Shown here: piece by piece, positions 12,055 through 40,366 of the stretch
Layout of the letters: every line of letters begins with the position of its first letter
Numbering within the stretch: the stretch's first letter is position 1
Assembly: GCF_007741495.1 (NCBI RefSeq)
Contig: NZ_CP036262.1
Span: 6,386,001 to 6,450,000, forward strand
Direction of reading: 5' to 3'
Length of the DNA: 64,000 nucleotides
From: Roseimaritima multifibrata
GTDB taxonomy: Bacteria > Planctomycetota > Planctomycetia > Pirellulales > Pirellulaceae
Position numbers and translations under genes: made by a program
The notes under the pieces: generated by a model
What the model saw: only the letters and a program-made list of their open reading frames with translations
Told to the model about the DNA's origin: nothing
The model's database searches: none

Positions 12055-13129
12055 GAAGATCGCTTTTCTCTTGTTGGTCGATAGCGTCTAGCAATTCGTC
12101 AATCAAGGCGTCCGCAGACAAACCTTCCGCTCGAGCGGCAAAATTCAATCGCATTCGATGTCGCAAGACAGGCTTCGCAATCGATCGAATATCTTCGCGT
12201 TCCACCATCATCCGGCCATCAAGTGCGGCTTTTGCTTTGGCCCCTAGCACCAAGTACTGACTACCGCGTGGCCCGGCGCCCCACTGGACGAACTGGTCGA
12301 CGCGTTGTGAAACGGGAAGCGTTTTTGTGCCGCCGTCGGCTGCCGAAGTGTCGGCAGGCCGTGACAGACGTGCCAACCGCGTCGCGTATCGTGCAACGCT
12401 TGCGGCGACCGGAACGCGCCGTACAGTCTGGATCAATTCAACCAATTCGTCCGCATTCAAAACCGGCTGGATCGACTCCTGCCCATCCCCCGTCGTCCGC
12501 ATCACCACCGCCAATTCGTCATCTTCACTCATGTGACGAATCCGAATATCAAACATGAATCGATCCAGCTGAGCCTCTGGGAGCGGGTAGGTCCCCTCTT
12601 GCTCGATCGGGTTCTGGGTCGCCAGCACAAAAAACGGATTCGGCAGCGCATGCCGCTGTCCGGCTGCCGTCACCTGTTTTTCCTGCATCGCTTCCAAGAG
12701 GGCCGCCTGAGTTTTCGGCGGAGTTCGATTGATTTCATCAGCCAGCACGATATTAGCAAAGACCGGTCCTTCAATGAATCGAAAATGACGTTCGCCGCTT
12801 GCCCGATCCTCCTGCATCACTTCCGTTCCCGTGATATCGGCGGGCATCAGGTCGGGAGTGAACTGGATACGGCTGAACTGCAACTGCAGGACTTCGGAAA
12901 GACTGTGAACCAACAATGTCTTTGCCAATCCGGGAACGCCAACCAGCAAACAGTGGCCCCCGGAAAACAAGGCGATCAAGACCTGTTCAATCACCTCTTC
13001 CTGACCAACAATCCGTCGGTGCAGTTGTTCGGTCATCAGCCGCTTAATTTCACCAAGCCGAACGAGACGTGAAGCATCATCGGCTGCAAGCGAAGCCACG
13101 GAATCGGTAGAAGTAGGATTGGCATTCAT
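12008..13129 (-). CDS. MoxR-family AAA+ ATPase
   Basis: The 373-residue protein has Walker A GVPGLAKT, Walker B VLADEINR, sensor-type ATQNPIEQEGTYPLPEAQLD and the C-terminal lid domain, all typical of MoxR chaperone-like ATPases. ATG 13129 is chosen; a TTG at 13189 would add 20 residues overlapping the upstream gene. It is the first of the MoxR-DUF58-BatA-VWA block and follows the PQQ-propeller gene with a 46-base gap. MoxR ATPases act with VWA proteins in the maturation of protein complexes. The link to oxidase assembly here rests on operon membership only. Confidence 0.93.
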   Translation of the reverse strand: MNANPTSTDSVASLAADDASRLVRLGEIKRLMTEQLHRRIVGQEEVIEQVLIALFSGGHCLLVGVPGLAKTLLVHSLSEVLQLQFSRIQFTPDLMPADITGTEVMQEDRASGERHFRFIEGPVFANIVLADEINRTPPKTQAALLEAMQEKQVTAAGQRHALPNPFFVLATQNPIEQEGTYPLPEAQLDRFMFDIRIRHMSEDDELAVVMRTTGDGQESIQPVLNADELVELIQTVRRVPVAASVARYATRLARLSRPADTSAADGGTKTLPVSQRVDQFVQWGAGPRGSQYLVLGAKAKAALDGRMMVEREDIRSIAKPVLRHRMRLNFAARAEGLSADALIDELLDAIDQQEKSDLHGSELEKVFRSADAR

Positions 13130-13175
13130 GTCTACTAGTGTCGCTGACCCGTGAGCCGGTGGCAATGACCTAACG

Positions 13176-15437: not shown

Positions 15438-15888
15438 AGATTTGATATAGCATTAGATAGACAACGACCCCTGAAATGGAAACGTACAACCAAATCGGGA
15501 ACGCCCAGCGGACAAGCCGTCGATGAGCACTTCGGCGGTCCTTCAGTCCCAGGATAGCAGCCCACACGGCCAATACGGGAACGGTGATCGCAAGCGGGAT
15601 ATGAGTCAGCAGCACCAACAGATAAACGATGAACGCCCCTTGGGACGCAACCGCAGGGTCCCGAGGAAACTTTTTGTTCGGCGATCCGGTCGTTTCCAAC
15701 AAGGCAAATTTGTGCAGTAGGTACAGCCCCAGAAAAAGGACACTGACGCTAAGGGCGGTCAGCATCAAGTTACGATGGGCCTTGATATTGCCACGCTTGA
15801 CTTGCCACAGGGCAAGCAACAGCAGAATGGTTGCCAACGCGTTTAGCGAAGCCGTTGCATGCGGTAGGTTTTCGGCTAACCAGTCCAT
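15421..15888 (-). CDS. DUF420 integral membrane protein
   Basis: The 155-residue protein has four membrane helices (ASLNALATILLLLALW; NLMLTALSVSVLFLGLYLL; GAFIVYLLVLLTHIPLAI with VLAVWAAILGL; FPIWLYVSISGVVVYLML). Conserved histidines occur in KAHRNLM, LLHKFAL and LTHIPLA, as in DUF420/YozB-CtaM-like proteins. Members of this family are found next to SCO and CtaA/CtaB and have been tied to cytochrome aa3 maturation. The start overlaps the SCO stop (TGATG), so translation is coupled. Confidence 0.9.
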   Translation of the reverse strand: MDWLAENLPHATASLNALATILLLLALWQVKRGNIKAHRNLMLTALSVSVLFLGLYLLHKFALLETTGSPNKKFPRDPAVASQGAFIVYLLVLLTHIPLAITVPVLAVWAAILGLKDRRSAHRRLVRWAFPIWLYVSISGVVVYLMLYQIYVPPQ

Positions 15889-16577
15889 CAGGCAGCATCC
15901 TTCGCTGTTTTATTGGCCGCGATCATTTCCTGCAAATCTTTTTCCAGTCGTTTCAACGAACGCGGGTCACTCCAGCGATATAACGCTTCCATATCCCCTT
16001 CAGGATTCATCAGAATAAACCGCTCGGTATGCTGCAAGTTTGCCGAAACTTGAAACATCTCGGCCCCCACACGCTGGATGTAGATGGGGTCATCGGTCGT
16101 CAGAAACAACCATTGATCCGGATCGGCACCGAAGCGGGCGGCGTACTCACGCAGCGCCTCTGGCGTATCGTTTTCCGCGTCGACGGAAATGGACAGGAAC
16201 TTGACATCTTGGCCAGCGAATTTGTCGGCCAGTTCCTTCAGCGCTTGATTTTGCTGAATGCAAATACTGGGACACTGAGTGAAAAAGAAACTGACAACGT
16301 AGGGCTGTCCTTTCAGCGATTCACTCGTGACTTCTCGGCCACTCCGTTCGGTCAACGTGAACTCTCGCACCCAATTTGCATCTTCCGGGAGATCTGGTTT
16401 CGGAGGAGCTTCGACTCGGGTTGGCTGTTCTTCATCGATGACGACTTCGATGTCACCGTCAGGACCTTTGATTGTGACCGTATGCTGCCGCTGAGATTGA
16501 TTTCGCATTTGGCGGAGCGCCAGCCCAATCACCAAACCGATCACCACGATCAAAAAAATATGGACTGCCGTTCGCAT
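15888..16577 (-). CDS. SCO1/SenC copper chaperone for cytochrome oxidase
   Basis: The 229-residue thioredoxin-like protein has an N-terminal anchor (IFLIVVIGLVIGLALR) and the copper-binding CPSIC motif in SFFFTQCPSICIQQNQAL. A downstream histidine at LQHTERFILMNPEG completes the CxxxC...H set. It delivers copper to the CuA site of subunit II on the outer face of the membrane. The start overlaps the permease stop by one base (TAATG). All metal ligands seem present, so it is probably functional. Confidence 0.94.
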   Translation of the reverse strand: MRTAVHIFLIVVIGLVIGLALRQMRNQSQRQHTVTIKGPDGDIEVVIDEEQPTRVEAPPKPDLPEDANWVREFTLTERSGREVTSESLKGQPYVVSFFFTQCPSICIQQNQALKELADKFAGQDVKFLSISVDAENDTPEALREYAARFGADPDQWLFLTTDDPIYIQRVGAEMFQVSANLQHTERFILMNPEGDMEALYRWSDPRSLKRLEKDLQEMIAANKTAKDAA

Positions 16578-17476
16578 TAGGCCACCAAATCTGCTTTCTT
16601 ACTTCCCCGCATCAGGTACCATGCAATCGACAGCATCGCGACCATGAACAGGACGGAAACGATCCAGTTGGTTACTGAATCCGGAGCGAACCCACCTTCG
16701 GCAAAATCGACGGCGGGATACAACAAATGCCGCATTTCAGCCAATCCATAGGTCAACGGATTGGCTAACATCACCCAGCGAAGCACGGTCTGCCCCATCG
16801 CAAGCGATTCTTCGCCGGCGGCTGGTACCGGGAAAAAGGCCCCGCTCATCAACCACATCGGCATCAGACCCAACATCATGATGGCATGAAACCCTTGAGT
16901 GCTATCCATCGGCCAGGCAACAATCATTCCCAACCCGCACATCGACAGTGCCAGCACCGCTAACAGCAGCATCAACGGGAAAATTGAAAAACTGAGAGGA
17001 GCGGTTCCGAAGGCGTAAACCAAGGTAAGAAAGAAGACCGCCTGAACCCACGCGATCGCTCCGCCGCCAATCACTTTGCCTGCCAACACGGGCCACCGCC
17101 CTACCGGCGCGACAAGCACAGCCTGCATAAAACCTTCGCGGCGATCCTCGATCACCGAAATGGTCGCAAAGATCGCAGTAAAAAGGACGATCAAGGCAAC
17201 GGTTCCTGGCAAGAAGAACTGGATAAAATCCTGTCCCCCTGCCCCTTCAAACGAGCCCCGCAAACCGGTTCCAAACAGGAGCCAAAAAAGCAGGGGCTGA
17301 ACGACAGCTGCGGTGACGCGGTTGCGTTGTCTAAAAAAGCGAACCCATTCGCGGCGGGCAAGCATCCACGCAGCCCCCCAACCACTCGGAGAATGAACGG
17401 TTGTAGGCATCGCGGCCGTAGGATCCGTAGCGGACACGGAAGCGGTACTTGAGGGTGCAGAAGTCGTTATCGACAT
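16577..17476 (-). CDS. ABC-2 type transporter permease
   Basis: The 299-residue protein has about six membrane helices in the ABC-2 pattern. Motifs include WMLARREWVRFFRQRNR before the first helix and EDRREGFMQAVLVAPVGR between helices, as in DrrB/NodJ-like permeases. It follows the matching ATPase gene by 12 bases. Placement between heme O synthase and SCO suggests export linked to oxidase assembly; the substrate cannot be read from the sequence. Confidence 0.92.
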   Translation of the reverse strand: MSITTSAPSSTASVSATDPTAAMPTTVHSPSGWGAAWMLARREWVRFFRQRNRVTAAVVQPLLFWLLFGTGLRGSFEGAGGQDFIQFFLPGTVALIVLFTAIFATISVIEDRREGFMQAVLVAPVGRWPVLAGKVIGGGAIAWVQAVFFLTLVYAFGTAPLSFSIFPLMLLLAVLALSMCGLGMIVAWPMDSTQGFHAIMMLGLMPMWLMSGAFFPVPAAGEESLAMGQTVLRWVMLANPLTYGLAEMRHLLYPAVDFAEGGFAPDSVTNWIVSVLFMVAMLSIAWYLMRGSKKADLVA

Positions 17477-26765: not shown

Positions 26766-26767
26766 AT
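26755..26767. promoter_or_regulatory. Palindromic operator candidate at the cluster start
   Basis: ATCACA and TGTGAT form a perfect 6-bp inverted repeat around a single T. It overlaps the proposed start codon at 26766. If translation really starts at ATG 26811, the palindrome would lie in the 5' untranslated region. It resembles a small repressor or CRP-family half-site pair but with unusual 1-base spacing. Confidence 0.3.
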
Positions 26768-27488
26768 GAGTGTTTGCAAAACCGTCGCTTCACGTCCCCC
26801 TTTTGTCACCATGGCCTCTGTCGCTTCTGTCCGTCCTCGTCACGACGCTTCTGCGCGGACGCTAGGCGAGACATTGAGTGCGAAGATACACCCGTGGATG
26901 CCAAAGGATATCGCCTGGCAGCTATCGCCGCTGCAACCAGCCGATTCAGCCTATCCGAATCGGCTTACAAAACGCCAGCGTGAATTCGCCGCGGGACGAT
27001 CCGTTGCCTCGGAGTTACTAAAAACCTTCGGTGTTAGCGAACGTGTTGGTGTGAATGCCGACCGCTCACCCGCGTGGCCCAAAGGTTTCGCCGGTTCGAT
27101 CACCCATAGCGATCACTGGGTTTGGTGCACAGTAGCACATCGTTCTGGGTATCTGTCTGTTGGAATCGATACCGAACCGATCGTCGACGAATCGACCGCA
27201 CAGCAACTTCACGAACAAATCGCGACCGAAACGGAATGGCAAATCGCCACAATTCCTTCTCTCGATCAATGCCAACGATTCACGCTCGTCTTCTCTGCCA
27301 AAGAAGCTTTTTACAAATGCTGGTATCCCATGATGGGAACCGTGCTCCATCCCAAACAAATCGAAGTTTGTCAGCTGGACGAGAACCGAATCACCATGAA
27401 ACGAAACTCTGATCCGTTTCAACTGGCGATCAGGTATCTCATTTACGGCGACAACGTTTTCACCGCAACTTGGTGGCGTGAAAATTGA
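26766..27488 (+). CDS. 4'-phosphopantetheinyl transferase, EntD/Sfp type
   Basis: This enzyme moves phosphopantetheine from CoA to the carrier-domain serines of the adjoining megasynthases. The 240-residue protein has RQREFAAGRSVASELL, GFAGSITHSDHWVWCTVA, the magnesium-binding VGIDTEP and FSAKEAFYKCWYPMM, all diagnostic of the EntD-like subgroup. The start is uncertain: ATG 26766 is used, ATG 26811 would give 225 residues, and neither has a Shine-Dalgarno. It is the first gene of the biosynthetic cluster; the synthase ATG follows its stop after 20 bases. Confidence 0.93.
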   Translation: MSVCKTVASRPPFVTMASVASVRPRHDASARTLGETLSAKIHPWMPKDIAWQLSPLQPADSAYPNRLTKRQREFAAGRSVASELLKTFGVSERVGVNADRSPAWPKGFAGSITHSDHWVWCTVAHRSGYLSVGIDTEPIVDESTAQQLHEQIATETEWQIATIPSLDQCQRFTLVFSAKEAFYKCWYPMMGTVLHPKQIEVCQLDENRITMKRNSDPFQLAIRYLIYGDNVFTATWWREN

Positions 27489-27508
27489 ATAGTGCAAAAG
27501 GATCTTTA

Positions 27509-30500
27509 ATGAATATTCAAGAACGATACTCGCTGCTTAACAACACCAAGGCTGCCACTCCTCAGTTGCATCTACATCAGTGGATTGAACAACAGTCCCA
27601 AGCAAACGCCGAAAAGACCGCTGTTGTTTGTGAACAGGACTCACAAAGCTATGCGTCATTAAGTGCATGGAGCAATCAGATTGCAGGCTGGCTTCAAACA
27701 AAGGGAGTCGGTATCGGCGACCGAGTAGGAATCTGCTGCAGGCGAGACGTCGATTTGCCCGCCACGCTGGTTGGGATCCTAAAGTCGGGCGCAAGCTACG
27801 TCCCTCTAGACCCAGAATACCCGGTGGACCGGCTGAAATTCATGGTCAAAGATGCAGACGTCAAGCATGTGCTGGGACACCAATCGCATGGTGACTTGAT
27901 TGACCAATTCGATGTCGACGCAACGATGATCGATCAGCAGCGCGATGCGATTGAATCGGCTGACGTCTATACGGAAGTGCATACCGATCCACGCACCGAT
28001 GTTGCCTATGTGATCTACACATCCGGTTCCACCGGAAACCCTAAAGGCGTTTTGGTGCCTCATCTGGCTGTGGTCAATATGCTGCATAGCATGATCTCCA
28101 CACCTGGATTTACCGCCGACGATCGGATCCTGGCAACGACCACGTTATCGTTTGACATCTCGGTCGCAGAGATGTTTTTGCCATTGGTCACCGGTGGCAG
28201 TGTCGCAGTCGTCGATCGACAAACGGCTCGTGACTCCGAACGATTGGTTCAAGCGATTCAGAAGCATCACGTCACCTTCATGCAGGCGACGCCGGCGATG
28301 TGGCGGATGATGGTCGAAGCCGAATTCAGCGGCACCTCACAGATGAAGTTCGTGACGGCTGGCGAACCGTTACCTCGTGATCTGATCGATCCGTTACTCG
28401 AACGCTGCGGCGAATTGTGGAACCTTTACGGCCCCACCGAAACGACCGTCTATTCAACGGCTTCACGCATTCTCAATTCCACCGATCGGATTTTGATCGG
28501 TAAACCAATCGATAACACGCACAGCTATATCGTTGATGATTCGGACCAGCTTTGCGACGTCGAAACACCGGGCGAATTACTGATCGGCGGTCTTGGCGTG
28601 ACGATGGGCTACCTAAACCGTGACGCGTTAAATGCGGAGAAGTTCGTCACCTGGAATGGCGAATCGGTTTTTCGAACGGGCGACCTTGCTCAGATTACCG
28701 ACGATGGACAAATCGACCACCTCGGGAGAATCGATTCACAAATCAAACTAAATGGTCACCGTATCGAACTTGGCGAAATCGATGCTGCGATGGCAACCGA
28801 TGCCTCGGTACGAATTGCGGCGACCGTTTTGCGCGAGGATACGCCGGGCGATGTTCGGTTAGTCGGATACGTCTTACCGGCGGACAACCAAACGCCTGAT
28901 GTTGTCGCCCTGCGTGAAGAACTATCGAAGTCGCTTCCCGATTACATGGTTCCTTCATCCATTACGGTTGTTGACTCGTTTCCCTATACGCCAAGCGGAA
29001 AACTAGACCGAGGTGCCTTTCCGATGCCGGCGACAAAGCGTCCGGACATCGAAACGCCGTACATCGCCCCTAAATCCGAACAAGAAAAACAACTAGCGAC
29101 GATCTGGTCGAACGTCTTGCAAATCGATCGCATTGGAACCCACGATTCGTTTTTTGATCTCGGTGGCAACTCCATTCGAGCCACCAAAGTGGTCAGCGCC
29201 GCTCGCAACCAGATGGGCATCAACGTCTCGATTGCCGAGTTCTTCGATCGTCCTACGATCGATGCGTTTCTCGCATCATCGGCAAAGTCCGAAGAACAAA
29301 AAACATTGCCAACTCCGGCAGCGTCTCGCTCACGCACAAACGCCTCAGGCCGGTTTGCGATCGTTGGGATGGCGGCTCGGATGCCAGGAGCCGAAGACGT
29401 TAACACGTTTTGGCAGAACCTAATCAACGAACGCGAATCGATCACCTTCTTCGATACGGACGAACTGGATCCTTCACTCGATCCCCGTGACACGCACTCG
29501 GAGCACTACGTTCCAGCACGCGGGATCCTTAAAGATTCCGATCATTTTGACGCTCGCTTTTTTGGCATGCCACCCCGGACGGCCGAATGGACCGACCCGC
29601 AACAACGGGTCTTGCTTGAACTGGCGTGGACCGCCCTCGAAGACGCGGGGATGGGCAACCATTCAGCAACCGCAACCGACGATGTGATCGGCATTTGGGC
29701 GGGAACGTATGCGACCAGCTACTTCATCAAAAACGTGCTTAGCAACCCCGAACGCGTTCGCGAAATCGGTGAATTCAACGCGGGGCTTAACAACGAAAAA
29801 GACTATCTTGCCACGCGAATTGCGCACAGTCTAAATCTGACGGGGCCCGCCGTCAGCGTCAGTACCGCGTGCTCCACTTCGCTGGTTGCGTTGATCGAAG
29901 CATGCAAAGCGATTGAAGGCGGACTGTGTGACGCCGCGATTGCCGGAGGAGTCTCTATTTCGCATCCACAAAACAGTGGACACCTGCACCAAACCGGCAG
30001 CATTTTTACTCCGGACGGTCATTGCCGACCGTTTGATGCTTTCGGGGCGGGAACGCTATTCAGCGATGGTGCCGGGTTGGTTGTCGTCAAACGATTGGAA
30101 GACGCCATCGAAAACAACGACCGAATATATGCCGTCATCCGTGGCTTTGGCATCAACAACGACGGGAGCGAAAAATCCAGTTTTGGTGCTCCCAGCATCC
30201 ATGGACAATCCCGAGCGATCGCAATGGCACACGCCTCCGCCGACGTCCAAGCTGAAAGCATCGGCTATATCGAAGCCCATGGCACGGCGACTCCCATCGG
30301 TGACCCTATCGAAGTGACCGCGCTGCGTGAAGTGTTCGAAGCCCAAACCGAACAGAAACAATTCTGTGCCATCGGATCGGTCAAAAGCAACATCGGGCAC
30401 ACCGTCGCAGCCGCTGGAGTCGCGGGGTTAATCAAAACCGCTCTGTCGCTGCACCACGAATGCATTCCGGCCACCCTGCACTTTGAAAACCCGAATCCGC

Positions 30501-33500
30501 AAATCGATTTTGAAGACAGTCCATTTTTTGTTTGCGATCGAACGATCCAGTGGCCTCGCTCCAGCGAACCCCGCCGAGCCGGCGTCAGTGCATTTGGTGT
30601 CGGTGGCACCAACGCACATGTCATCCTTGAAGAAGCTCCAGCGGTGCACGCAGGCGAAACGCAGGAGAGAAGTGGAACGCTTCCCGTTCACCTCTTGCCG
30701 GTTTCGGCGAAAACAGAAACGGCTCTCAGCAAGTCGGCGAAACGACTTGCAACGTATCTAGAATCCGACCGCGGATCGAGCATCGAACTTGCCGATGTTG
30801 CCCACACGCTGGCTAACGGCCGAGCCCGGATGAACTGGCGAGCGTTTGTTGTTGCAGGTGATCCGCAAGATGCTTCAAAAGCCTTTTCATTGCAGAAAGC
30901 CCCCCGTTACCAACAGCAAAAATGGGACGGAGTCGAACGGGACGTCGTGTTTATGTTTCCCGGCCAAGGCGCTCAGTACCTGCGGATGGGACACGATCTT
31001 TATCAACACTGTGACGTGTTCCGAGCTTCCCTCGACCGATGCTGCGACCTGCTAACGCCATCGATCGACCGTGATCTACGGGATATCCTTTTTCCGGCTT
31101 CCGATCAACATGAATCGGCGACGGCCCTCCTTCGCGAAACGCAGTTCACCCAACCGGCCCTTTTTGCAGTTGGCTATTCATTAGCCCAAACTTGGATGAA
31201 CTGGGGCATCCGTCCGACCGCGATGATGGGACACAGCATTGGCGAATTTGCGGCCGCCTGTGTCGCCGGTGTCTTTTCACTAGAGGACGCAGTGCGGCTG
31301 ATCGCAAAGCGTGGCGAAATGATGCAACGTTTGCCTGGCGGCAGCATGCTGAGCGTACGTTTGCCCGGGCATACTGTCGAACCGATGTTATCGGGCGATT
31401 TGGCAATTGCCTCTTACAACGGCCCGTCACTCTGTGTCGTCGCAGGCCCGGACGATCAAGTTCAAACGCTCCAGAAAGAGCTTGAATCTAACGAAGTTGT
31501 TTGCCGTTCCTTGCAGACGTCCCACGCCTTCCATTCGCCAATGATGCAGGAGATCGTTCGTCCGTACGCCGAATTTGTCCGCACGGTGACGCTAGCCCCT
31601 CCTTCCATCCCGATTCTATCCACCGTATCAGCCGACTGGATGACGGATGAACAAGCAACCGATCCGAATTACTGGGCCGCGCACTTGCGTGAACCGGTGC
31701 AATTCTCAGGTGCAGTCACCCAGATGTGGAAAGAGGATTCCTCACGCATTTTGCTGGAACTAGGACCACGTCGAACGCTCGCCACGCTTGCCAAGCAACA
31801 CGCTGACGACCCCAAAAAACAAATCGCATTGCCCAGTTTGTCGGACAACGCCGACGACCACACGGAATCGAAAGCCATGTTGTCCGCATTGGGACGAATG
31901 TGGCTAGAAGGGGTTTCGATCGACTGGAAAAACGTTCAAACCAAGGGACGAACCGTATCGTTGCCGACCTATCCGTTCGAGCGAAAACGCTACTTCATGG
32001 AACCGAATCAAGCGAAATATCGCTCGCTTCATCCAATACCGCCCTCCCCTGTCCCGGCCGATGTGTTAGCGAATTTGCCAAGCACCGAAACCGCCCCAAG
32101 CATTCCGACCAGCTTGTCCAGCCCTTCTCCCTGTTCAGCGCCGAACCTACCCATGAATCGCAAACCTGCAATCATCACCGCGATTAAAGACGTCTTCGAA
32201 AACTCCTCCGGCTTTGATCTAAACGATTTCGAGAACGACACCACGTTCTTTGAAATGGGGCTCGATTCGCTTGGATTGACTCAAACCGCAACGGCACTGC
32301 ACAAAGCGTTTGGCATCGAAGTTACCTTTCGGCAATTGCTAGAAGAAACGCCTCATGTCGACGGCTTGAGCAATTTCCTAGACGAACACTTACCCCGCGA
32401 TCAATTTCGCGAACAAGCCGAACCGCAACAGGATCACGCGGCCAACGTCGCAAGCTTCACCACAAACCCAATCGCCGCAGATCAGTCGGACTTAACCGGA
32501 CAGATCACACTCGACAATAACACCGCTAGCGTCACGCAATCGCCCGTCAACGTCCAGACGGATCAACTTGGCCAAGTCGCAACAGGAGACATGACCTACT
32601 CGATTGTGCAGCAACAACTGCAAATCATGGCTGCCCAAATGCAATGGTTAGCTGGCACGCCCGTCTCTGTTCCGGCAACGACCACGCCGTTGGCCTCATC
32701 GACATCTCCTCAGCCGCAATCGCGGTCACCAAAAGAACCATCCAAAGATCTGACGCCTCCGCCATTCACAAATGACGCCCCTCCAAAGGCTTTTGGTGCG
32801 GCGGCTCGTGTTGCTAAAACCGATTCTGCACTGGACGCATCCCAGCAGACGGCACTTGATGAAATCATCCGGCTGCACAACCAGATGACTCCCAAGAGCA
32901 AAGCTCAGGCACAGCAGCATCGTGCTTACTTAGCCGACCCACGAACGGTTTCAGGATTCCGTCCGAACTTAAAAGAGATGACCTATCCGTTGGTCGTTGA
33001 CCGCTCCAAAGGAGTTTACCTGTGGGATATCGACGGTAACGAGTACGTCGACTTTACGTGCGGATTCGGTTCCAACTTGCTGGGACATTCGCATGAGATC
33101 ACGGTCAATGCGATTAACGAACAAGTCCAAAAGGATTTTTCGATCGGGCCTCAATCCCCGTTGGCTGGTGAAGTCGCGGCTCTCTTCTGTGAATTGACCG
33201 GGAATCAACGAATGGCGTTTGCCAACACCGGCAGCGAAGCGGTACTGGCCTGCACTCGGCTGGCCCGATCCGCAACCGGCCGTGATCGAATCGTGATGTT
33301 CAATGAGGATTATCACGGGATCTTGGATGAAGTGCTGGTCCGCGGCAGCAAGTCACATAAAAGCTTCCCAGCCGCACCGGGAATTCCAAAAGAACACGTC
33401 TCCAACACCCTCGTCCTCGATTACGGCACCGACGAATCGCTTCGGATCATCCAAGAGAATATCGACACGATCGCCGCCATCCTTGTAGAGCCCGTCCAAA

Positions 33501-34315
33501 GCCGACACCCTGAACTTCAACCTCGCGAATTCCTACACAAATTGCGAGCCCTTACCGAACACGCACCGACCGCACTTATTTTCGACGAAGTGATCTCGGG
33601 ATTACGAATCGGGAAAGGGGGAGCCCAGGAGTACTTTGGCATCCGCGCGGACCTAGCGTCGTACGGCAAGGTGGTCGGTGGGGGGATGCCGATCGGCGTC
33701 GTCGCTGGCAAGGCCGAATATATGGATGGACTGGATGGCGGTTTTTGGCAATACGGGGACGACAGTCGGCCCGAGGCGGGAATGACTTATTTCGCGGGAA
33801 CGTTCGTGCGACACCCACTCACGCTTGCTGCATCCAAAGCGATCCTTCAGCACATCAAAAGCGAAGGGCAACCGATGTACGACCGGCTGAATCAGTTAGG
33901 TGACTATCTAACCACAGAACTAAATAAAGTAGCGACCGAATTGAATGCTCCTTTGTTTGCCGCCAACTTTGGTTCCTTATTCAAATTGCAATTCCACGAT
34001 GAACCTCTTTATAGCGAACTGCTGTTTGCAGCGATGCGACGTCGAGGCATGCACATCTGGGATCACCGACCATGTTTGTTAACGCTGGCACATACGAAAT
34101 CACACGTTGACCAATTGGTTCAAGCGTTGCACGAATCGATTATCGAATGCCAACGACATGGTTTCCTGACAGGTGACGGATATCGAAAATCATCGGTATC
34201 CAGTGCCGCAGACCAACCGCCAGTCTCGGGTGCAAAACTTGGAAAAGACAAAAACAACCATCCCGGTTGGTTCATCCCCGACGCCGCCAACCCAGGTCAA
34301 TTCCTGCAAGTCTAA
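27509..34315 (+). CDS. Hybrid NRPS-PKS megasynthase A-PCP-KS-AT-ACP-AMT
   Basis: The protein has 2268 residues. Adenylation, about 20-500: IYTSGSTGNPKGVL, FDISVAEMFLP, NLYGPTETTV, RTGDLA, PSGKLDR. PCP: DLGGNSIRA, about 545-560. Ketosynthase, about 615-1050: active Cys in STACSTSL, His in EAHGTATP and NIGHT. Acyltransferase, about 1145-1450: GHSIGE and HAFH, the malonyl-specific type. ACP: GLDSL near 1585. A Gln/Thr/Pro-rich linker follows, then a class III PLP aminotransferase, about 1830-2210: NTGSEAV, FDEVISGLR, Lys in SYGKVVGGG. There is no KR, DH or methyltransferase domain. An amino acid is loaded, extended by one malonyl unit, and the beta-keto group is replaced by an amine, as in iturin-family MycA/ItuA modules. 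AAAGGA precedes ATG 27509. Confidence 0.96.
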   Translation: MNIQERYSLLNNTKAATPQLHLHQWIEQQSQANAEKTAVVCEQDSQSYASLSAWSNQIAGWLQTKGVGIGDRVGICCRRDVDLPATLVGILKSGASYVPLDPEYPVDRLKFMVKDADVKHVLGHQSHGDLIDQFDVDATMIDQQRDAIESADVYTEVHTDPRTDVAYVIYTSGSTGNPKGVLVPHLAVVNMLHSMISTPGFTADDRILATTTLSFDISVAEMFLPLVTGGSVAVVDRQTARDSERLVQAIQKHHVTFMQATPAMWRMMVEAEFSGTSQMKFVTAGEPLPRDLIDPLLERCGELWNLYGPTETTVYSTASRILNSTDRILIGKPIDNTHSYIVDDSDQLCDVETPGELLIGGLGVTMGYLNRDALNAEKFVTWNGESVFRTGDLAQITDDGQIDHLGRIDSQIKLNGHRIELGEIDAAMATDASVRIAATVLREDTPGDVRLVGYVLPADNQTPDVVALREELSKSLPDYMVPSSITVVDSFPYTPSGKLDRGAFPMPATKRPDIETPYIAPKSEQEKQLATIWSNVLQIDRIGTHDSFFDLGGNSIRATKVVSAARNQMGINVSIAEFFDRPTIDAFLASSAKSEEQKTLPTPAASRSRTNASGRFAIVGMAARMPGAEDVNTFWQNLINERESITFFDTDELDPSLDPRDTHSEHYVPARGILKDSDHFDARFFGMPPRTAEWTDPQQRVLLELAWTALEDAGMGNHSATATDDVIGIWAGTYATSYFIKNVLSNPERVREIGEFNAGLNNEKDYLATRIAHSLNLTGPAVSVSTACSTSLVALIEACKAIEGGLCDAAIAGGVSISHPQNSGHLHQTGSIFTPDGHCRPFDAFGAGTLFSDGAGLVVVKRLEDAIENNDRIYAVIRGFGINNDGSEKSSFGAPSIHGQSRAIAMAHASADVQAESIGYIEAHGTATPIGDPIEVTALREVFEAQTEQKQFCAIGSVKSNIGHTVAAAGVAGLIKTALSLHHECIPATLHFENPNPQIDFEDSPFFVCDRTIQWPRSSEPRRAGVSAFGVGGTNAHVILEEAPAVHAGETQERSGTLPVHLLPVSAKTETALSKSAKRLATYLESDRGSSIELADVAHTLANGRARMNWRAFVVAGDPQDASKAFSLQKAPRYQQQKWDGVERDVVFMFPGQGAQYLRMGHDLYQHCDVFRASLDRCCDLLTPSIDRDLRDILFPASDQHESATALLRETQFTQPALFAVGYSLAQTWMNWGIRPTAMMGHSIGEFAAACVAGVFSLEDAVRLIAKRGEMMQRLPGGSMLSVRLPGHTVEPMLSGDLAIASYNGPSLCVVAGPDDQVQTLQKELESNEVVCRSLQTSHAFHSPMMQEIVRPYAEFVRTVTLAPPSIPILSTVSADWMTDEQATDPNYWAAHLREPVQFSGAVTQMWKEDSSRILLELGPRRTLATLAKQHADDPKKQIALPSLSDNADDHTESKAMLSALGRMWLEGVSIDWKNVQTKGRTVSLPTYPFERKRYFMEPNQAKYRSLHPIPPSPVPADVLANLPSTETAPSIPTSLSSPSPCSAPNLPMNRKPAIITAIKDVFENSSGFDLNDFENDTTFFEMGLDSLGLTQTATALHKAFGIEVTFRQLLEETPHVDGLSNFLDEHLPRDQFREQAEPQQDHAANVASFTTNPIAADQSDLTGQITLDNNTASVTQSPVNVQTDQLGQVATGDMTYSIVQQQLQIMAAQMQWLAGTPVSVPATTTPLASSTSPQPQSRSPKEPSKDLTPPPFTNDAPPKAFGAAARVAKTDSALDASQQTALDEIIRLHNQMTPKSKAQAQQHRAYLADPRTVSGFRPNLKEMTYPLVVDRSKGVYLWDIDGNEYVDFTCGFGSNLLGHSHEITVNAINEQVQKDFSIGPQSPLAGEVAALFCELTGNQRMAFANTGSEAVLACTRLARSATGRDRIVMFNEDYHGILDEVLVRGSKSHKSFPAAPGIPKEHVSNTLVLDYGTDESLRIIQENIDTIAAILVEPVQSRHPELQPREFLHKLRALTEHAPTALIFDEVISGLRIGKGGAQEYFGIRADLASYGKVVGGGMPIGVVAGKAEYMDGLDGGFWQYGDDSRPEAGMTYFAGTFVRHPLTLAASKAILQHIKSEGQPMYDRLNQLGDYLTTELNKVATELNAPLFAANFGSLFKLQFHDEPLYSELLFAAMRRRGMHIWDHRPCLLTLAHTKSHVDQLVQALHESIIECQRHGFLTGDGYRKSSVSSAADQPPVSGAKLGKDKNNHPGWFIPDAANPGQFLQV

Positions 34316-34322
34316 AGTTCAG

Positions 34323-34370
34323 CAGGCTGGCAGCCTGTAGTAGTCTCCTCCGAACAGGCTGGCAGCCTGT
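34323..34370. repeat. Two copies of a short palindrome between the synthase genes
   Basis: CAGGCTGGCAGCCTGT occurs at 34323-34338 and again at 34355-34370, separated by 16 bases. AGGCTG/CAGCCT forms the stem. It fills most of the 85-base gap between the two megasynthase genes. It could be a small REP element or a processing or attenuation site within the operon. Confidence 0.75.
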
Positions 34371-34400
34371 GCTACCTTTTTCTCCACGACGTACGAAACG

Positions 34401-37400
34401 ATGACTCCTGTGCTTTCTAATTTGAATTCCGTCGCCGCTACCGTTGCGTTCGTTCCGGGCACTCAACCCGAAAACCGTTACGCCACCTCGCAGGCTCAGC
34501 TGGAAGTCTGGCTGTCGGCTAAGCAAAGCGAACAAGCCAATTGCGCATACAATGAAATTAGCACGCTCGAACTTCGCGGTCCTCTAGACGTTGATCGATT
34601 GAAGCAAGCGATTGTCAAAGTCTGCGAGCGTCATGGATCGTTGCGGTCAACCGTTGGCATCGATGGCCAACACATCCTGGTCCACCCGCGTCCCCAACAT
34701 GCCTTTTCGTTTGTCGATTGGTCGATAGATCCATCAAAAGATATCGCTGCGGCTCGTCGCATGGTGGTGCAAAACGAAGCGACCACACCGTTTGACCTTG
34801 TCGATGGGCCGTTGTTAAGAGCCGTTTTGCAGAAAGCGACCGATACACAGCACTGGTTAACCCTCACCGCACACCACTTGGTGATGGATGGTTGGTCGCT
34901 GGCGTTATTCTATCGCGACCTCGGATATTTTTACGACACGCTGTCGGGTATCCAGCGTGACGCTTTGGCACCGGCAAGCCAGTACGACGAATATGCGTTG
35001 CAGATGGACCAATACATGGCGTCCGATGCAGGGCAAGCCGACGAAGCCTTTTGGACAAAATGCTACCAAGGGGACATCCCCGTTCTCGAATTACCGATTG
35101 AAAAACCTCGTCCTTCCTTGCGCACCTTTACCGCGGAACGGATGGAAACCACCCTTCCCGCCACGTTGGTCGCAGCGGTTCAAAAAGTCGGCGCGAAGTC
35201 GGGATGCAGCCGATACAACACCCTACTGGCAGCGTTCACCGCGTATGTCGCCCAGATCAGTGGCTGCGACGATTTTGGGATCGGGATTCCGACCGCAGGT
35301 CAAGCCGCACTGGATCATCCCGAACTGATCGGACACTGCGTCAATACGATGCCTCTGCGAACTCAGGTCGATTCGGACACCTCCTTTCTCTCGCATATGA
35401 AACAGACTCGCAGCAGACTGCTGGATGCGTTTGAACATCAACGTTATTCCTACGGAACCCTGCTGCGGAAACTTGCCCCGGCACGCGATCCGTCGCGTCC
35501 ACCGATGCTGAACGTTTCCTTCAACATCGATCCTGTCATGGATACTGCTCAGCTTGGATTCACAGGATTCGATCTGGACATCACGATCGAACCACGTCGA
35601 TTTGAAAATTTTGAATGGTTCATCAACGGAGTCATTCGAAAAGACCAATCGATCGAACTGCAAGTTCAATACAACTCGGACCTGTATACCGAACGAGCGA
35701 TGGAATGTTACTTCGACGGATTCCGGACATTCCTCGAAGGAGTTGCAGCCAGCCCCGACACCCGAATCAACGACCTGCCGAAAGTCAGTCTTAGGATGCG
35801 GCAGCAAGCGATCGTCGACTGGAATGCAACCGCACTCGATTACCCAATCGAAGCGACTCTACACAGTGAATTCTCACGGCAAGCAACAGCCACTCCCGAC
35901 GCCGTTTGTGTGCGATTTGGCGACCAAACTTTGACGTATGCAGACGTCGATTCGCAATCCAATCGAATCGCCCGTTACCTGAAGTCGGAAGGCGTTCAAG
36001 AGGGCGATCTTGTTGGCATCTGCGTCAACCGCAGCGAGCAGATGTTGGTCAACCTAATCGCGATTTTGAAAGCGGGATGTGGCTACGTCCCACTTGACCC
36101 AGCCTACCCGTCGGACCGATTGCAATACATGTGCGATCATTCCCAACTGACGACGATCGTAACTGAACGCAGCTTGGTACCGCGAATCACTTCGTTCAAC
36201 AAACCCCACCTTGCTATCGATGATGCAAGGGAAGCGATTGCAAACCTGGACGATTCGGATGTACAAACATCGGCAAATCCCAATGACACCTGCTATGTGA
36301 TCTACACATCCGGTTCGACGGGCAAACCAAAAGGGGTCCAAGTCCAACACGGTGCGGTAGTGAATTTCTTGTATGCGATGCGCGAAGCCCCCGGTTTTAC
36401 GCAGGACGATTCGATCCTTGCTGTGACCACCCTATCGTTTGATATTGCGGTGCTGGAACTGTACCTGCCGATCGTCTTTGGTGGATCGGTAGTGATTGCC
36501 GACACGGACACATCCAGCAATGGATCCAAACTGGCCGACGCCCTTGAAAAACATGACATCACATGGCTTCAAGCGACCCCTGCGACGTGGCGTTTGTTGA
36601 TTCAAAGCGGATGGCAGGGCAAAACCAAACGGAATGGGCAGGCATTCAAGGTGCAGGCATTCAAGGTACTGTGCGGCGGTGAACCAATGCCGAATGACTT
36701 GGTCGATCCGCTGCTGAAACGGTGCGACCAGCTTTGGAACATGTATGGTCCGACCGAGACGACCGTCTGGTCGGCCGTCTACAGAATCACCGATGCTTCG
36801 TCGCCCATCTTGATCGGAAAACCGATCGGAAACACTCAAATCTATTTACTGGACCAACAGGGCCACGAAGTCTCTCCCGGATGTGAAGGCGAAGTCTACA
36901 TCGGTGGTGCAGGCGTCACCCAGGGGTATCTCCACCGTCCCGATTTAACCGAAGAACGTTTTGTCGACAATCGATATCGCAATCCCTTCGTCGCCTACAA
37001 CAACAATAAACTCTACCGGACCGGTGACCTGGCTCGGTACACGTTTGATGGCAACTTGCAATTCCTACGTCGCAACGACAAACAGGTGAAGGTCCGCGGA
37101 TATCGGATTGAACTGGGTGAAATTGAATCCCATTTGAAATCGCATCCAGCAGTCGCCCAGTGCGTCGTGATCGTTCGCGAAGATTCACCCGGCGACGCGA
37201 AACTGGTTGCCTATGTGATTCCCAAACCGGAACAATCGGCATCTGCAATCGAACTTCGCGAACATCTTCGGATGTCGGTCCCCAACTATATGGTGCCGCA
37301 AAACTTCGTCACGCTTGATAGCATGCCGCAAACCAACAATGGGAAAATCGACTACGCGTCTCTGCCCAGCCCGAAACAGAACACGGCGTCTGACGATCTG

Positions 37401-37775
37401 CTCAACGCGACCGCCGAAAAACCTGAAACCGAAGCCGAAAAGCGACTTGCCGCGATTTGGCAGGAGGTTTTGGAAACCGATCAAATCGGTCGAGACGACA
37501 ACTTCTTCGACATTGGAGGTCACTCGCTGTTGGTGATGAAAGTCATCGCCATCGTTGCGGAAACCACATCGATCTCCTTAAGCCCACAAGACTTCCTGAC
37601 CGGAACGTTGCGGCACATGGCTTACCAATTGGAGGATGTGACCGGTGCGGCGGACACGACTGCGGACGCTTCCGTAAAGGTCGGAATGGAAACGGTCGAT
37701 CCTGCCAAGCCCTCAAGTTCCGCGGAACCCAAACATCGATTGCTGCGATCCCTTAAAGGATTTTGGAACGAATAA
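34401..37775 (+). CDS. NRPS module C-A-PCP, no thioesterase
   Basis: The protein has 1124 residues. Condensation domain, about 25-450, with intact catalytic HHLVMDGWS at about 157-165. Adenylation domain, about 480-990: IYTSGSTGKPKGV, FDIAVLELYLP, NMYGPTETTVW, RTGDLARY, RGYRIELGEIE. PCP with GGHSL, the Ser near 1042. After the PCP only a polar tail of about 60 residues follows, so no TE or reductase releases the product. A hand-read specificity code against GrsA-Phe gives D-I-L-Q-L-G-M-V-W-K, close to the glycine code DILQLGLIWK. It acts after the hybrid synthase. Its stop overlaps the next start (TAATG). Confidence 0.95.
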   Translation: MTPVLSNLNSVAATVAFVPGTQPENRYATSQAQLEVWLSAKQSEQANCAYNEISTLELRGPLDVDRLKQAIVKVCERHGSLRSTVGIDGQHILVHPRPQHAFSFVDWSIDPSKDIAAARRMVVQNEATTPFDLVDGPLLRAVLQKATDTQHWLTLTAHHLVMDGWSLALFYRDLGYFYDTLSGIQRDALAPASQYDEYALQMDQYMASDAGQADEAFWTKCYQGDIPVLELPIEKPRPSLRTFTAERMETTLPATLVAAVQKVGAKSGCSRYNTLLAAFTAYVAQISGCDDFGIGIPTAGQAALDHPELIGHCVNTMPLRTQVDSDTSFLSHMKQTRSRLLDAFEHQRYSYGTLLRKLAPARDPSRPPMLNVSFNIDPVMDTAQLGFTGFDLDITIEPRRFENFEWFINGVIRKDQSIELQVQYNSDLYTERAMECYFDGFRTFLEGVAASPDTRINDLPKVSLRMRQQAIVDWNATALDYPIEATLHSEFSRQATATPDAVCVRFGDQTLTYADVDSQSNRIARYLKSEGVQEGDLVGICVNRSEQMLVNLIAILKAGCGYVPLDPAYPSDRLQYMCDHSQLTTIVTERSLVPRITSFNKPHLAIDDAREAIANLDDSDVQTSANPNDTCYVIYTSGSTGKPKGVQVQHGAVVNFLYAMREAPGFTQDDSILAVTTLSFDIAVLELYLPIVFGGSVVIADTDTSSNGSKLADALEKHDITWLQATPATWRLLIQSGWQGKTKRNGQAFKVQAFKVLCGGEPMPNDLVDPLLKRCDQLWNMYGPTETTVWSAVYRITDASSPILIGKPIGNTQIYLLDQQGHEVSPGCEGEVYIGGAGVTQGYLHRPDLTEERFVDNRYRNPFVAYNNNKLYRTGDLARYTFDGNLQFLRRNDKQVKVRGYRIELGEIESHLKSHPAVAQCVVIVREDSPGDAKLVAYVIPKPEQSASAIELREHLRMSVPNYMVPQNFVTLDSMPQTNNGKIDYASLPSPKQNTASDDLLNATAEKPETEAEKRLAAIWQEVLETDQIGRDDNFFDIGGHSLLVMKVIAIVAETTSISLSPQDFLTGTLRHMAYQLEDVTGAADTTADASVKVGMETVDPAKPSSSAEPKHRLLRSLKGFWNE

Positions 37776-38632
37776 TGGAACCACGATTTATCGGCGACCC
37801 TCACTCTCAACTCCTCAGCATCCATCATCGGGCGCAAGGAGTCCACGGGAACTCAAAGCGTGCGGTGGTGATTTGCCCACCGATAGGCCAGGAATACGTT
37901 CAGACCCACTGGTCGTTACGGTTGTTTGCCAACCAACTTGCACGCAAAGGAGTCCATGTTTTACGACTGGATTACTACGGCATCGGCGATTCCGCCGGCG
38001 AGATCGAAGACGTCACATCGACCGCAGTTTGGCTTCAAAACATTGCCACGGCGATTCAGCATTTGCAAGACAACACGGGTGTCGAAACGGTCACGCTGGT
38101 CGGATTGCGACTGGGAGCGACCTTGGCGGCGCAGGTTGCCGATGACAATCCGAATGTGAACGCCGTCGTTCTTTGGGAACCGGTCGCCGATGGCCGCGAA
38201 TACCTTGATGCATTACGCAGCAACCACCACGAGATGCTTGATTTGTGGGTGCGACCGATCCAGACGCCCAACGATGAATCGCGGGAAGAAATCCTCGGTA
38301 CTCGTTATTCACGTGAACTCGTTCGCGAAATCGAACAGACAACCCTCGATCCTTCGTCCATCGTCCAGCCTCAATTGATCGTGCAACTGGAAAGTGATAC
38401 TCGATCATTTTCACATCCGACCGATGGGATCCAGCGAGTGTTCCGAGTGGCAGATAGCGACGACTGGTCCGATTTACGTCGCCTGGAAGTCGCGTGGTTG
38501 CGGCCAACCACGATTCGCATGATCGTCGATAGTGTCGACGACATGTTTGACCGCCTGGACCGCTTCGAAGCCCTATCGCTTCCCGATTCAGGGATGCAAC
38601 TTCAGGAACTGACCGCAGGAGTTCAACAATGA
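37775..38632 (+). CDS. Alpha/beta-hydrolase-like protein with GLRLG elbow
   Basis: The 285-residue protein has an alpha/beta hydrolase core: VVICPPIGQEYVQTHWS near the oxyanion region, VLRLDYYGIGDSAGE, then the nucleophile-elbow position LVGLRLGATLAAQ. The elbow reads GLRLG, with Arg where GxSxG has the catalytic Ser, so normal serine hydrolysis is doubtful. The pattern recalls the exosortase-A-associated hydrolase 2 family, also usually paired with a second hydrolase. ATG 37775 overlaps the NRPS stop. It might assist release or transfer of the carrier-bound product. Confidence 0.82.
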   Translation: MEPRFIGDPHSQLLSIHHRAQGVHGNSKRAVVICPPIGQEYVQTHWSLRLFANQLARKGVHVLRLDYYGIGDSAGEIEDVTSTAVWLQNIATAIQHLQDNTGVETVTLVGLRLGATLAAQVADDNPNVNAVVLWEPVADGREYLDALRSNHHEMLDLWVRPIQTPNDESREEILGTRYSRELVREIEQTTLDPSSIVQPQLIVQLESDTRSFSHPTDGIQRVFRVADSDDWSDLRRLEVAWLRPTTIRMIVDSVDDMFDRLDRFEALSLPDSGMQLQELTAGVQQ

Positions 38633-39501
38633 AAGAAACGATCTGCCGGTTTGGCCCGAATGATTCACTGCTGGGCATCTTAACCCGCCCCGACGAAGAC
38701 GAATTGATTAAGGACGCCCCCGTTGCGTTGATCCTAAACGCCGGGATTGTTCATCGTGTTGGTCAGTTTCGATTGCATGTCAGCATGGCTAGGCAATTGG
38801 CCAAGCAGGGATATTCAACACTACGGATCGATCTATCGGGACTGGGGGATAGCGCCCCGCGAACCGATCGTTCCGATTCCGACAACCGTGCCGAACGGGA
38901 TGTCCGCGACGCAATGGATCATCTAGAGCAAACGATCGGAGCGGAATCGTTTGTGTTGATCGGGTTATGCAGCGGCGCCTACAACGCACACAAAGTATCG
39001 ATCAAAGAAGATCGCGTTACCGGAGCGGTCTTTCTGGACGGACTGGTCTTCCAAACATCGGGTTATGTTCGACGTCACAAAATCGGACGTCTTTTCCGAT
39101 ACCGGTTTTGGAGGAATGCCATCAAACGCCGCCTGTCTGGAAAGATGCCGGACCATAGCGAATCGGACGCAAACCAGCTTGCCGCCAGCGAGTTTTTTGA
39201 TACCGGGATGAGCCGCGAAAGCGTCCGCAACGATCTGCAAACATTGCTAGACCGGAACGTGCAGATGCTGTTCATTTATACCGAGGGATACGACGACATT
39301 TGTGGTCGGGCTCAGTTCTACGAGATGTACGGTTTTCGTCCCAGCGATCAACAGCAAGTCGAATATTACGCCAACGCCGAACACACCTACCCGATCGTCG
39401 AGAACCGCGAAATCGCTTGCGTCCGCATTGCCACTTGGTTCGCGGACCGTTTCCCACGTGTCGCCGAAAATCGCCGCATCCTGCAAAACTCTAGCCTCTA
39501 A
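38629..39501 (+). CDS. Alpha/beta hydrolase with GLCSG elbow (candidate release enzyme)
   Basis: The 290-residue protein has LILNAGIVHRVGQFRLH, TLRIDLSGLGDSAPR, and the elbow LIGLCSGAYNAH. The nucleophile position is Cys (G-L-C-S-G), as in dienelactone-hydrolase-like and exosortase-associated hydrolase 1 proteins. A late His (AEHTYPIV) and an Asp in GYDDICG could complete a triad. It overlaps the previous hydrolase by ATGA. With no thioesterase in the synthases, it is the best candidate for product release. The exact chemistry is unknown. Confidence 0.85.
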   Translation: MKETICRFGPNDSLLGILTRPDEDELIKDAPVALILNAGIVHRVGQFRLHVSMARQLAKQGYSTLRIDLSGLGDSAPRTDRSDSDNRAERDVRDAMDHLEQTIGAESFVLIGLCSGAYNAHKVSIKEDRVTGAVFLDGLVFQTSGYVRRHKIGRLFRYRFWRNAIKRRLSGKMPDHSESDANQLAASEFFDTGMSRESVRNDLQTLLDRNVQMLFIYTEGYDDICGRAQFYEMYGFRPSDQQQVEYYANAEHTYPIVENREIACVRIATWFADRFPRVAENRRILQNSSL

Positions 39502-39511
39502 AGACAACACG

Positions 39512-40366
39512 ATGAGTTCACTGTTATCGATTGAAACCGCCAGCGAAGCGAGCCTAAAAAAGCGAACCGCCGAATGCATTGGCCGGATTGTTTCAACGCT
39601 TTCGCCAGGACGGACCAAGATGCTGTACGAAACGCCACAAAGTACCCCCAGTGGATTCGTCGACAAAGCGATCATGGCGTTCCTTAAACGAAACGCCATC
39701 CAGAATCACCAGGAGGGCTTCTTCGAACGATTGCACAAAGACTTTTGGCAAGGGAAAGGGGGCGAGGTCTTTTCCAGTAACTGCGACAATCGTTTTAACG
39801 ATCTGTTTCTCACCCGGCAGAAAGACGACATCACCGCGTTGAAAAAGACATGCCTGGAAACAAAACCGAAACACCTGGTCGAATTCGGCTGCAGTGGCGG
39901 CGCCGTCCTAAACTATCTGACTCAATCGATTGAGGGTATCGATTCGGCAACCGGCATCGAGATCAACCAAGAACAAGTGCGGCGCAATCAAACGTCTGAT
40001 GAATTTGATTCACGAATCGACTTTGTTTGTGATGACGGCGGCGATTGGTTGCTCGCCAACGGGCAACCCCAAAGTCTGTTTGTATCTAATGGAGGCGTCC
40101 TGGAATATTTCCGACGCGAGCGACTGGATCAAATGTTGACTCATATTTCGCAGCAACTTGGGCCAGCCACTTTTTTTGCAATCGAACCGGTGGCGTGCGA
40201 CCACGATTTCGATCAAACGAACGCATCGATTCCATTTGGCAACGAGCTTTCCTTTTCACACAACTACCCCAATCTATTTCAATCCAACGGGTTTGATGTA
40301 GTCCATCGGTCCGTCGTCGAATTTGAATCATGGAAGATGTTGGCCATCATCGCGGTTACTCGGTAA
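39512..40366 (+). CDS. SAM-dependent class I methyltransferase
   Basis: ATG 39512 lies 10 bases after the hydrolase stop; an in-frame extension to 39302 is just overlap with the upstream gene. The 284-residue protein has an N-terminal helical part and the SAM motif I LVEFGCSGGAVLNYL. An acidic residue follows at TGIEINQEQ, then FVCDDGGDWL. The family is common among tailoring methyltransferases. As the last gene of the cluster, it likely methylates the NRPS-PKS product (O- or N-methylation cannot be told). Confidence 0.85.
   Translation: MSSLLSIETASEASLKKRTAECIGRIVSTLSPGRTKMLYETPQSTPSGFVDKAIMAFLKRNAIQNHQEGFFERLHKDFWQGKGGEVFSSNCDNRFNDLFLTRQKDDITALKKTCLETKPKHLVEFGCSGGAVLNYLTQSIEGIDSATGIEINQEQVRRNQTSDEFDSRIDFVCDDGGDWLLANGQPQSLFVSNGGVLEYFRRERLDQMLTHISQQLGPATFFAIEPVACDHDFDQTNASIPFGNELSFSHNYPNLFQSNGFDVVHRSVVEFESWKMLAIIAVTR

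Follow-up and report, generated by a model that had tools for sequence, protein, structure and literature searches.

Gene Organization and Domain Content of the Cluster

The window analyzed here is a stretch of 64,000 nucleotides of Roseimaritima multifibrata (NZ_CP036262.1, positions 6,386,001 to 6,450,000), from a genome of 7.22 Mb assembled as a single contig. It carries a cluster of six open reading frames (ORFs), PPTase, NP1, NP2, H2, H1 and a methyltransferase, all found on the + strand when the ORFs of the window were checked. Domains were called with Pfam at an E-value of 0.001, with NCBIfam models for the hydrolases and the AMT. The features are as follows, in window positions:

26766..27488, + strand: PPT, Sfp/EntD-type 4'-phosphopantetheinyl transferase (Pfam ACPS 64.3 bits, 4PPT_N 57.3 bits; VGID and KEA motifs)
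27509..34315, + strand: NP1, A1-PCP-KS-AT-ACP-AMT (Pfam domains, intact motifs, A1 code DIAQVALVYK)
32822..34204, + strand: AMT domain of NP1, class III aminotransferase of the PKS beta-amination type (MycA AMT 6kfm; Aminotran_3 172 bits)
34316..34400, + strand: short intergenic gap in which the palindrome-like AGGCTGGCAGCCTG occurs twice, at 34324 and 34356 (sequence scan)
34401..37775, + strand: NP2, C-A2-PCP without a thioesterase (TE) (Pfam; A2 code DILQLGMVWK, Gly; HHLVMDG; 46-aa tail past the PCP)
37775..38632, + strand: H2, predicted pseudoenzyme of the alpha/beta-hydrolase fold whose nucleophile elbow carries Arg (GLRLG) (TIGR03101, 93.8 bits)
38629..39501, + strand: H1, Cys-nucleophile alpha/beta-hydrolase (GLCSG; Cys114, His252), predicted off-loading enzyme (TIGR03100, 66.8 bits)
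39512..40366, + strand: methyltransferase (Methyltransf_25, 28.6 bits)

The ORFs and Pfam matches bear out an earlier note on this DNA, which had described a one-strand cluster of six genes with this domain order. Its statement that the genes mostly overlap holds for the true tight junctions, NP2/H2 (TAATG, 37775) and H2/H1 (ATGA, 38629), but not for the methyltransferase: the ORF runs from a GTG at 39302, which created an artefactual overlap, and the first plausible ATG (39512) lies past the H1 stop at 39501. The PPT ORF opens at TTG 26736, with an ATG at 26766. For NP1, the ATG at 27509, which has AAAGGA ahead of it, is a more likely start than the ORF-opening TTG at 27485. Judged by eye, the flanks look housekeeping-like, with purD before the cluster and prmC and prfA after it on the opposite strand. 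The G+C content of the window is approximately 55%; in PMC8303584, strain FF011L has the lowest value of a 54.5 to 62.4% range.

NP1 combines AMP-binding, PP-binding (two stretches), ketoacyl-synt N and C, Acyl_transf_1 and Aminotran_3 in one protein of 2,276 aa, while Condensation, AMP-binding and PP-binding were matched in NP2. At an E-value of 0.001, Pfam gave no match to KR, thioesterase or acyl-loading domains in the cluster proteins, nor to the PF00975 thioesterase in NP2, H1 or H2. Together with the short tail of NP2, this agrees with the lack of KR, fatty-acid loading and TE noticed previously. The motifs of KS (TACSTS, EAHGT, NIGH), AT (GHSIG, HAFH), the carriers (GGNS, GLDS, GGHS), AMT (YGKVVGGG), C (HHLVMDG) and PPT are all intact in the window, which thus holds a hybrid NRPS-PKS line of A, PCP, KS, AT, ACP, AMT, C, A and PCP domains. 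We take HAFH to mark a malonyl-type AT, in line with the malonyl unit already proposed for this cluster.

Distribution in Pirellulaceae and Comparison With Known Architectures

An AMT profile was searched over 241 genomes of the same taxonomic family (Pirellulaceae), and at least 37 of them matched at an E-value of 1e-140 or better. The matches split into at least 17 genomes at 697 bits or more, including that of the window, and 20 genomes at 569 bits or less. These searches undercount, since 5 to 6 candidates per genome were scored in the AMT scan and in the H1 scan described below. In addition, one contig scan returned 17 loci; in 11 of these, from planctomycete MAGs throughout, the AMT shows at least 64% identity, and they correspond to 11 of the 17 genomes from the profile search. 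No Pedobacter was returned by that scan. As both approaches recovered relatives, we rejected the view of a one-off cluster. The architecture, which the earlier note had suggested looking for in other planctomycetes, recurs as a family in at least 17 of the 241 genomes, that of the window included.

The gene order PPT-NP1-NP2-H2-H1 recurs in the relatives. PPT adjoins NP1 in 12 of the 17 genomes, is missing from that position in three (G014, G102, G078) and is off contig in two (G003, G167). The A-to-ACP part and the AMT are separate ORFs in G014 and a single ORF in its sister G102. The hydrolase pair comes immediately after NP2 in 13 of 17. Two more genomes are compatible with this order: in G158 a PCP precedes the pair on a broken-off contig, and the pair of G078 is located at the edge of its contig. 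The pair of G171 is on another contig, unlinked to NP1-NP2, and no H1 was found in G003 (82% complete). Few flanking genes are common to the 16 loci compared. Wherever a domain is on the contig, which leaves out some domains of G003, G158 and G167, the relatives have the same catalytic motifs or conservative variants (NVGH, NFGH, GFDS, GGTS, GGSS, KES). Inactive catalytic residues, raised earlier as an argument against the predicted chemistry, were thus not encountered by motif in either the window or its relatives, and we rejected inactive catalytic domains.

The methyltransferase does not share this conservation. Its Pfam match is weak (Methyltransf_25, cut-off 27 bits), and tblastn at an E-value of 1e-4 gave no match in 18 other loci, a scan limited by the fact that the sequence reaches 1 kb or more past a linked H1 in just 10 relatives. 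Being matched only in this genome's copy among the loci scanned, it was rejected as part of the cluster core, and its previous listing as a cluster member does not extend to the conserved cluster.

The architecture had also been presented as new, a claim weakened by a 2013 survey that already tabulates it. Table 2 of the survey lists A-CP-KS-AT-CP-PLP1 in Pedobacter heparinus C6XWU5, from a cluster with the predicted product 'Nrp-Mal-Gly-Pk', as well as extended forms in Thiorhodococcus drewsii (G2E5C9, which has additional domains) and Salinisphaera (PMC3870968). Compared by tabulated architecture, the Pedobacter and Thiorhodococcus proteins have the A-carrier-KS-AT-carrier-class III aminotransferase order of NP1, but they come from other phyla and no product is given for them. 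The literature searched yielded no characterised cluster with the same gene order and no relevant description of a diamino-acid/AMT/Gly product. Four PKS/NRPS clusters are reported for strain FF011L in PMC8303584, where predicted clusters show less than 10% similarity to known ones. Within the portions available, aminotransferases are not mentioned in PMC12181424, nor are NRPS-PKS, hybrid or nonribosomal in PMC12078418. What is new here is the distribution of the family, the nearly fixed Gly code with a variable starter, and the Cys/Arg pair formed by H1 and H2.

Specificity of the Adenylation Domains

The code positions of the A domains were taken by GrsA numbering. The A2 code of the window, DILQLGMVWK, is close to DILQLGLIWK, which we take to be the Gly code, and so falls among Gly-activating domains. 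Its best solved match is LgrA, and within LgrA the best stretch is the second A domain, whose module presumably takes Gly. Of 16 complete A2 reads, 15 give DILQLGMVWK and the other, from G003, is one letter off (DILQLGLVWK); the A2 of G158 agrees over nine letters. By contrast, 13 distinct A1 codes were observed among 15 complete reads (G003 and G167 were partly read), from the Gly-like DILQIGLVWK (G111) to the quite different DIYFFGFVLK (G078). The window A1 code looks like a small-pocket variant. With A2 nearly constant and A1 variable, glycine looks fixed and the starter appears to vary, which supports Gly as the second amino acid, as the earlier note had supposed. One head group (diamino-acyl-Gly) might be kept while the starter is varied between genomes, as a signal family might do.

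H2 and H1 Form a Specific Pair, Often Next to Carrier Proteins

The last two conserved genes had been described simply as two hydrolases. Both indeed have alpha/beta-hydrolase folds, but this description missed a specific pair of a Cys enzyme and an Arg partner that probably does the job of the TE. The best NCBIfam match of H1 is TIGR03100 (66.8 bits against a cut-off of 168.45) and that of H2 is TIGR03101 (93.8 bits against 202.75), both models being of the type 'hypoth_equivalog'. We rejected the exosortase-A hydrolase label because these scores are below the curated cut-offs. A TIGR02602 scan of the genome revealed no exosortase locus near the cluster; the matches over the cut-off, at genome positions 6342749 and 6715483, are about 70 and 290 kb away.

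The elbow Cys and a conserved His of H1 were present in all 44 pairs analyzed, and the elbow Arg of H2 in 43 of them, the remaining one having Gly. Beyond the family, the acidic residue Asp137 is not conserved; a single phylum locus also has it. Seven weak TIGR03100/03101 matches from elsewhere served as a control: the five with readable elbows all had Ser, and two were without a match. Three groups separate in the H1 tree: 14 rows of exosortase-type loci (100/98), 3 rows of fused ligase-linked pairs (100/98) and 16 rows of the Pirellulaceae family (100/99). Some branches of this tree are long, and some of its forks are open. Judged from these sequences, H2-H1 is a specific pair and apparently distant kin of the exosortase-A hydrolases. 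The two share the order H2-H1, the Cys/Arg elbows and a carrier just before H2. They differ in that the pair studied here sits among NRPS-PKS genes and not in an exosortase locus, with model scores under the curated cut-offs, and in the H1 elbow, GLCSG against GLCDA or GLCDG in exosortase-A loci.

To see the pair in other settings, the family H1 profile alone was run on 392 genomes of the phylum at an E-value of 1e-30. At least 10 genomes matched, nine of them besides that of the window, and H2 was directly upstream of H1 on the same strand in all nine loci. TIGR03100 was likewise run, at an E-value of 1e-15, on 143 genomes of the class to which G645 belongs (Methylococcaceae, a gammaproteobacterial family). 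At least 18 genomes matched; one region was fetched for each, and all 18 contained a same-strand pair, although in three the second member, called H2 by profile, bears an H1 elbow. Fourteen of these 18 loci exceed the TIGR03100 cut-off. In L149 the neighborhood includes matches over the cut-off to each of TIGR03098, 03099, 03100 and 03101, and the other 13 are termed exosortase-type from their TIGR03100 score and common layout.

In the cluster, H2 with its Arg elbow is directly upstream of H1 with its Cys elbow, and a carrier lies upstream of both. The carrier ends 128 to 317 nt before H2 in all 13 linked loci of the family. Of the 14 exosortase-type loci, 13 have a stand-alone ACP-like ORF immediately ahead of H2 and one is truncated by a contig end; 12 of these ORFs pass the Pfam PP-binding cut-off and one falls at 20.6 against 20.8. 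Among the nine phylum loci, the carrier is within 150 nt of H2 in five and at 2.3 kb in a sixth, and in three the same strand shows none over the 3 kb upstream. In the class set, a terminal PCP is located just before H2 in L160. L162 encodes A-PCP-H2 as one ORF of 872 aa, whose H2 portion gives a weak Pfam match of 18.3 against 26.3. No carrier was found upstream of the pairs in L161 and L163 with a carrier profile, nor upstream of the pair in L121. H2 and H1 are fused into one ORF in L099, L161 (twice) and L129. The L161 pairs are beside a homologue of amino acid--[acyl-carrier-protein] ligase (PDB 3mey and 4h2w, E-value about 1e-67), a DUF1839 gene and an acyl-CoA dehydrogenase-like gene, and L129 has approximately 60% identical copies of all three. 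By eye, an 83-aa ORF of L161 is carrier-like, without a Pfam match. L128 has KS and SDR genes nearby.

In the literature searched, in which subscription journals were mostly outside coverage, the pair is nowhere described as a module for unloading carriers. Haft's 2006 article (PMC1569441) contains no mention of hydrolase, acyl carrier, decarboxylase, AMP-binding or NRPS. PMC4897644 describes N-acyl amino acid synthases, users of acyl-ACP, some of which are linked to exosortase systems. The ACP of the exosortase loci could serve another enzyme, such as one of these synthases.

Proposed Pathway and Role of the Pair

We propose that this conserved Pirellulaceae assembly line probably makes a small (beta,gamma-diamino-acyl)-glycine that is released through H2-H1. 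The route put forward earlier, an amino acid extended with malonyl, transaminated and joined to glycine, is still the best reading and has the Gly code in its favor, with substrates and product that are predicted, not proven. PPT would arm the carriers, A1 would load an amino acid, probably a small one here, and KS-AT would add malonyl to give a 4-amino-3-oxo-acyl-ACP. The AMT would then turn the ketone into an amine, and C would couple the resulting 3,4-diamino-acyl chain to glycine on the last PCP. Because a TE is absent, we assign the exit of the product to H2-H1. H2, a hydrolase fold with Arg in place of the nucleophile, would be a pseudoenzyme docking on the terminal carrier, and the Cys of H1 would accept the chain and hand it on to water, to another acceptor or, in a cyclisation, to the chain's own amine. 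The methyltransferase may be an optional local decoration.

A carrier-bound load is common to most contexts of the pair, which makes unloading the most economical role, and the Cys of H1 favors transfer as the fate of the load. A broader and tentative reading, somewhat less likely than not, is that H2-H1 is a general two-protein module for off-loading carrier-bound (amino)acyl groups, in which the H2 Arg pseudo-hydrolase reads the carrier and the H1 Cys enzyme takes the load. Such a module would span two phyla and three unrelated charging systems, namely NRPS/PKS lines, the ligase/ACP locus of exosortase-A systems and aaRS-like amino acid:[carrier protein] ligases, with the present cluster as its simplest NRPS-PKS case. 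If the off-loading role is true, the pair stands in for the TE that these assembly lines lack. It then also offers a hypothesis on what two unassigned exosortase-A proteins (hydrolase 1 and 2) do and on what becomes of the aminoacyl groups of aaRS-charged carriers. We therefore put forward the hydrolase pair as a more interesting lead than the architecture of the cluster. The cluster itself, compact and conserved, offers a testable route to a predicted beta,gamma-diamino peptide in Planctomycetes, a phylum with few characterised natural products.

It is possible, though rather unlikely, that H1 is instead an aminoacyl or acyl shuttle, which would transfer the product from its carrier to a second carrier, a polymer or some other acceptor. 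SyrC and CmaE are Cys-dependent transferases of the alpha/beta-hydrolase fold. By description, they resemble H1 in fold, Cys nucleophile and carrier-bound aminoacyl substrate; neither is known to have a pseudoenzyme partner. The invariant elbow Cys of H1, never replaced by Ser, would suit a shuttle, as would the occurrence of the pair in exosortase-type loci and beside the amino acid:[carrier protein] ligase homologue, where the load is probably passed on. The conserved cluster, however, has no second acceptor carrier or polymer gene, and NP2, its last enzyme, has no TE. Less probable still is that the pair acts as a type II editing thioesterase for misprimed carriers, with the product releasing itself when its beta- or gamma-amine spontaneously attacks the Gly thioester, forming a 1,4-diazepanedione or a larger ring. 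The product would bear two free amines, and stand-alone hydrolases of NRPS clusters are often editors. Against editing stand the lack of a PF00975 match, the carrier proteins ahead of the pair, whose tails of 8 to 90 aa leave no room for a TE (the carrier being fused to H2 in L162), and the presence of the pair in loci without a multi-module line.

The amination step can be compared with that of mycosubtilin, whose AMT adds an amine to a beta-keto thioester. The AMT domain of NP1 matches the structure of that enzyme (PDB 6kfm) with an E-value of 8e-122, which supports an AMT of the mycosubtilin type, and by this similarity it is predicted to convert a carrier-bound beta-ketone into an amine. 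That it would be an aminomutase like glutamate-1-semialdehyde aminomutase, swapping the amine and ketone positions and adding no second amine, is very improbable: it does match HemL models, at 255.6 bits for TIGR00713 with a cut-off of 527.3, and the 4-amino-3-oxo chain resembles the HemL substrate pattern, but its best solved relatives are mycosubtilin AMT. NP1 shares the AMT domain with MycA of the mycosubtilin/iturin systems, and it differs from these in opening with A-PCP, without fatty-acyl loading, so that its beta-keto chain would derive from an amino acid.

Variation in NP1 and in the hydrolase pair

NP1, the A1-PCP-KS-AT-ACP-AMT protein, is encoded by two ORFs in genome G014, one of 1640 aa (A to ACP) and one of 494 aa (AMT). 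It is a single ORF of 2299 aa in the close sister G102, and the split reflects either a fission or a sequencing error.

L040 (G014), 10366-16958: NP1 as two ORFs

The H2-H1 hydrolase-fold genes were also observed where no carrier upstream or no assembly-line domain around them was found, or fused to each other.

L168 (G171), 9829-11658: H2-H1 pair, on another contig than NP1-NP2
L163, 4752-6553: H2-H1 pair, elbow GLCGG
L161, 5917-7761 and 11711-13453: H2 and H1 fused, in two distinct genes

A 19-kb stretch surrounding the G171 pair yielded no assembly-line domain. The L163 pair adjoins polysaccharide synthesis genes, and no carrier was found upstream of it. The locus of the two L161 fusions also contains genes for DUF1839 and for a homologue of amino acid:[carrier protein] ligase, as well as glycosyltransferase-type and glycoside-hydrolase-type genes.

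Repeat between NP1 and NP2

Window 34316-34400, NP1-NP2 gap: AGGCTGGCAGCCTG, palindrome-like, two copies

On the + strand of the window, no further AGGCTGGNAGCCTG was found.

A second AMT group

A second planctomycete AMT group occurs in the taxonomic family, at loci L043, L044, L045 (G002, G009, G001) and L046 (G028) and in the 20 genomes with weaker AMT scores, with an identity of ~46% (four loci compared, L043-L046). Two genomes of the window's own genus are among those that have it. The AMT is laid out as KS-AT and ACP-AMT in separate genes in L043-L045, and as ACP-AMT-C-A-PCP in L046.
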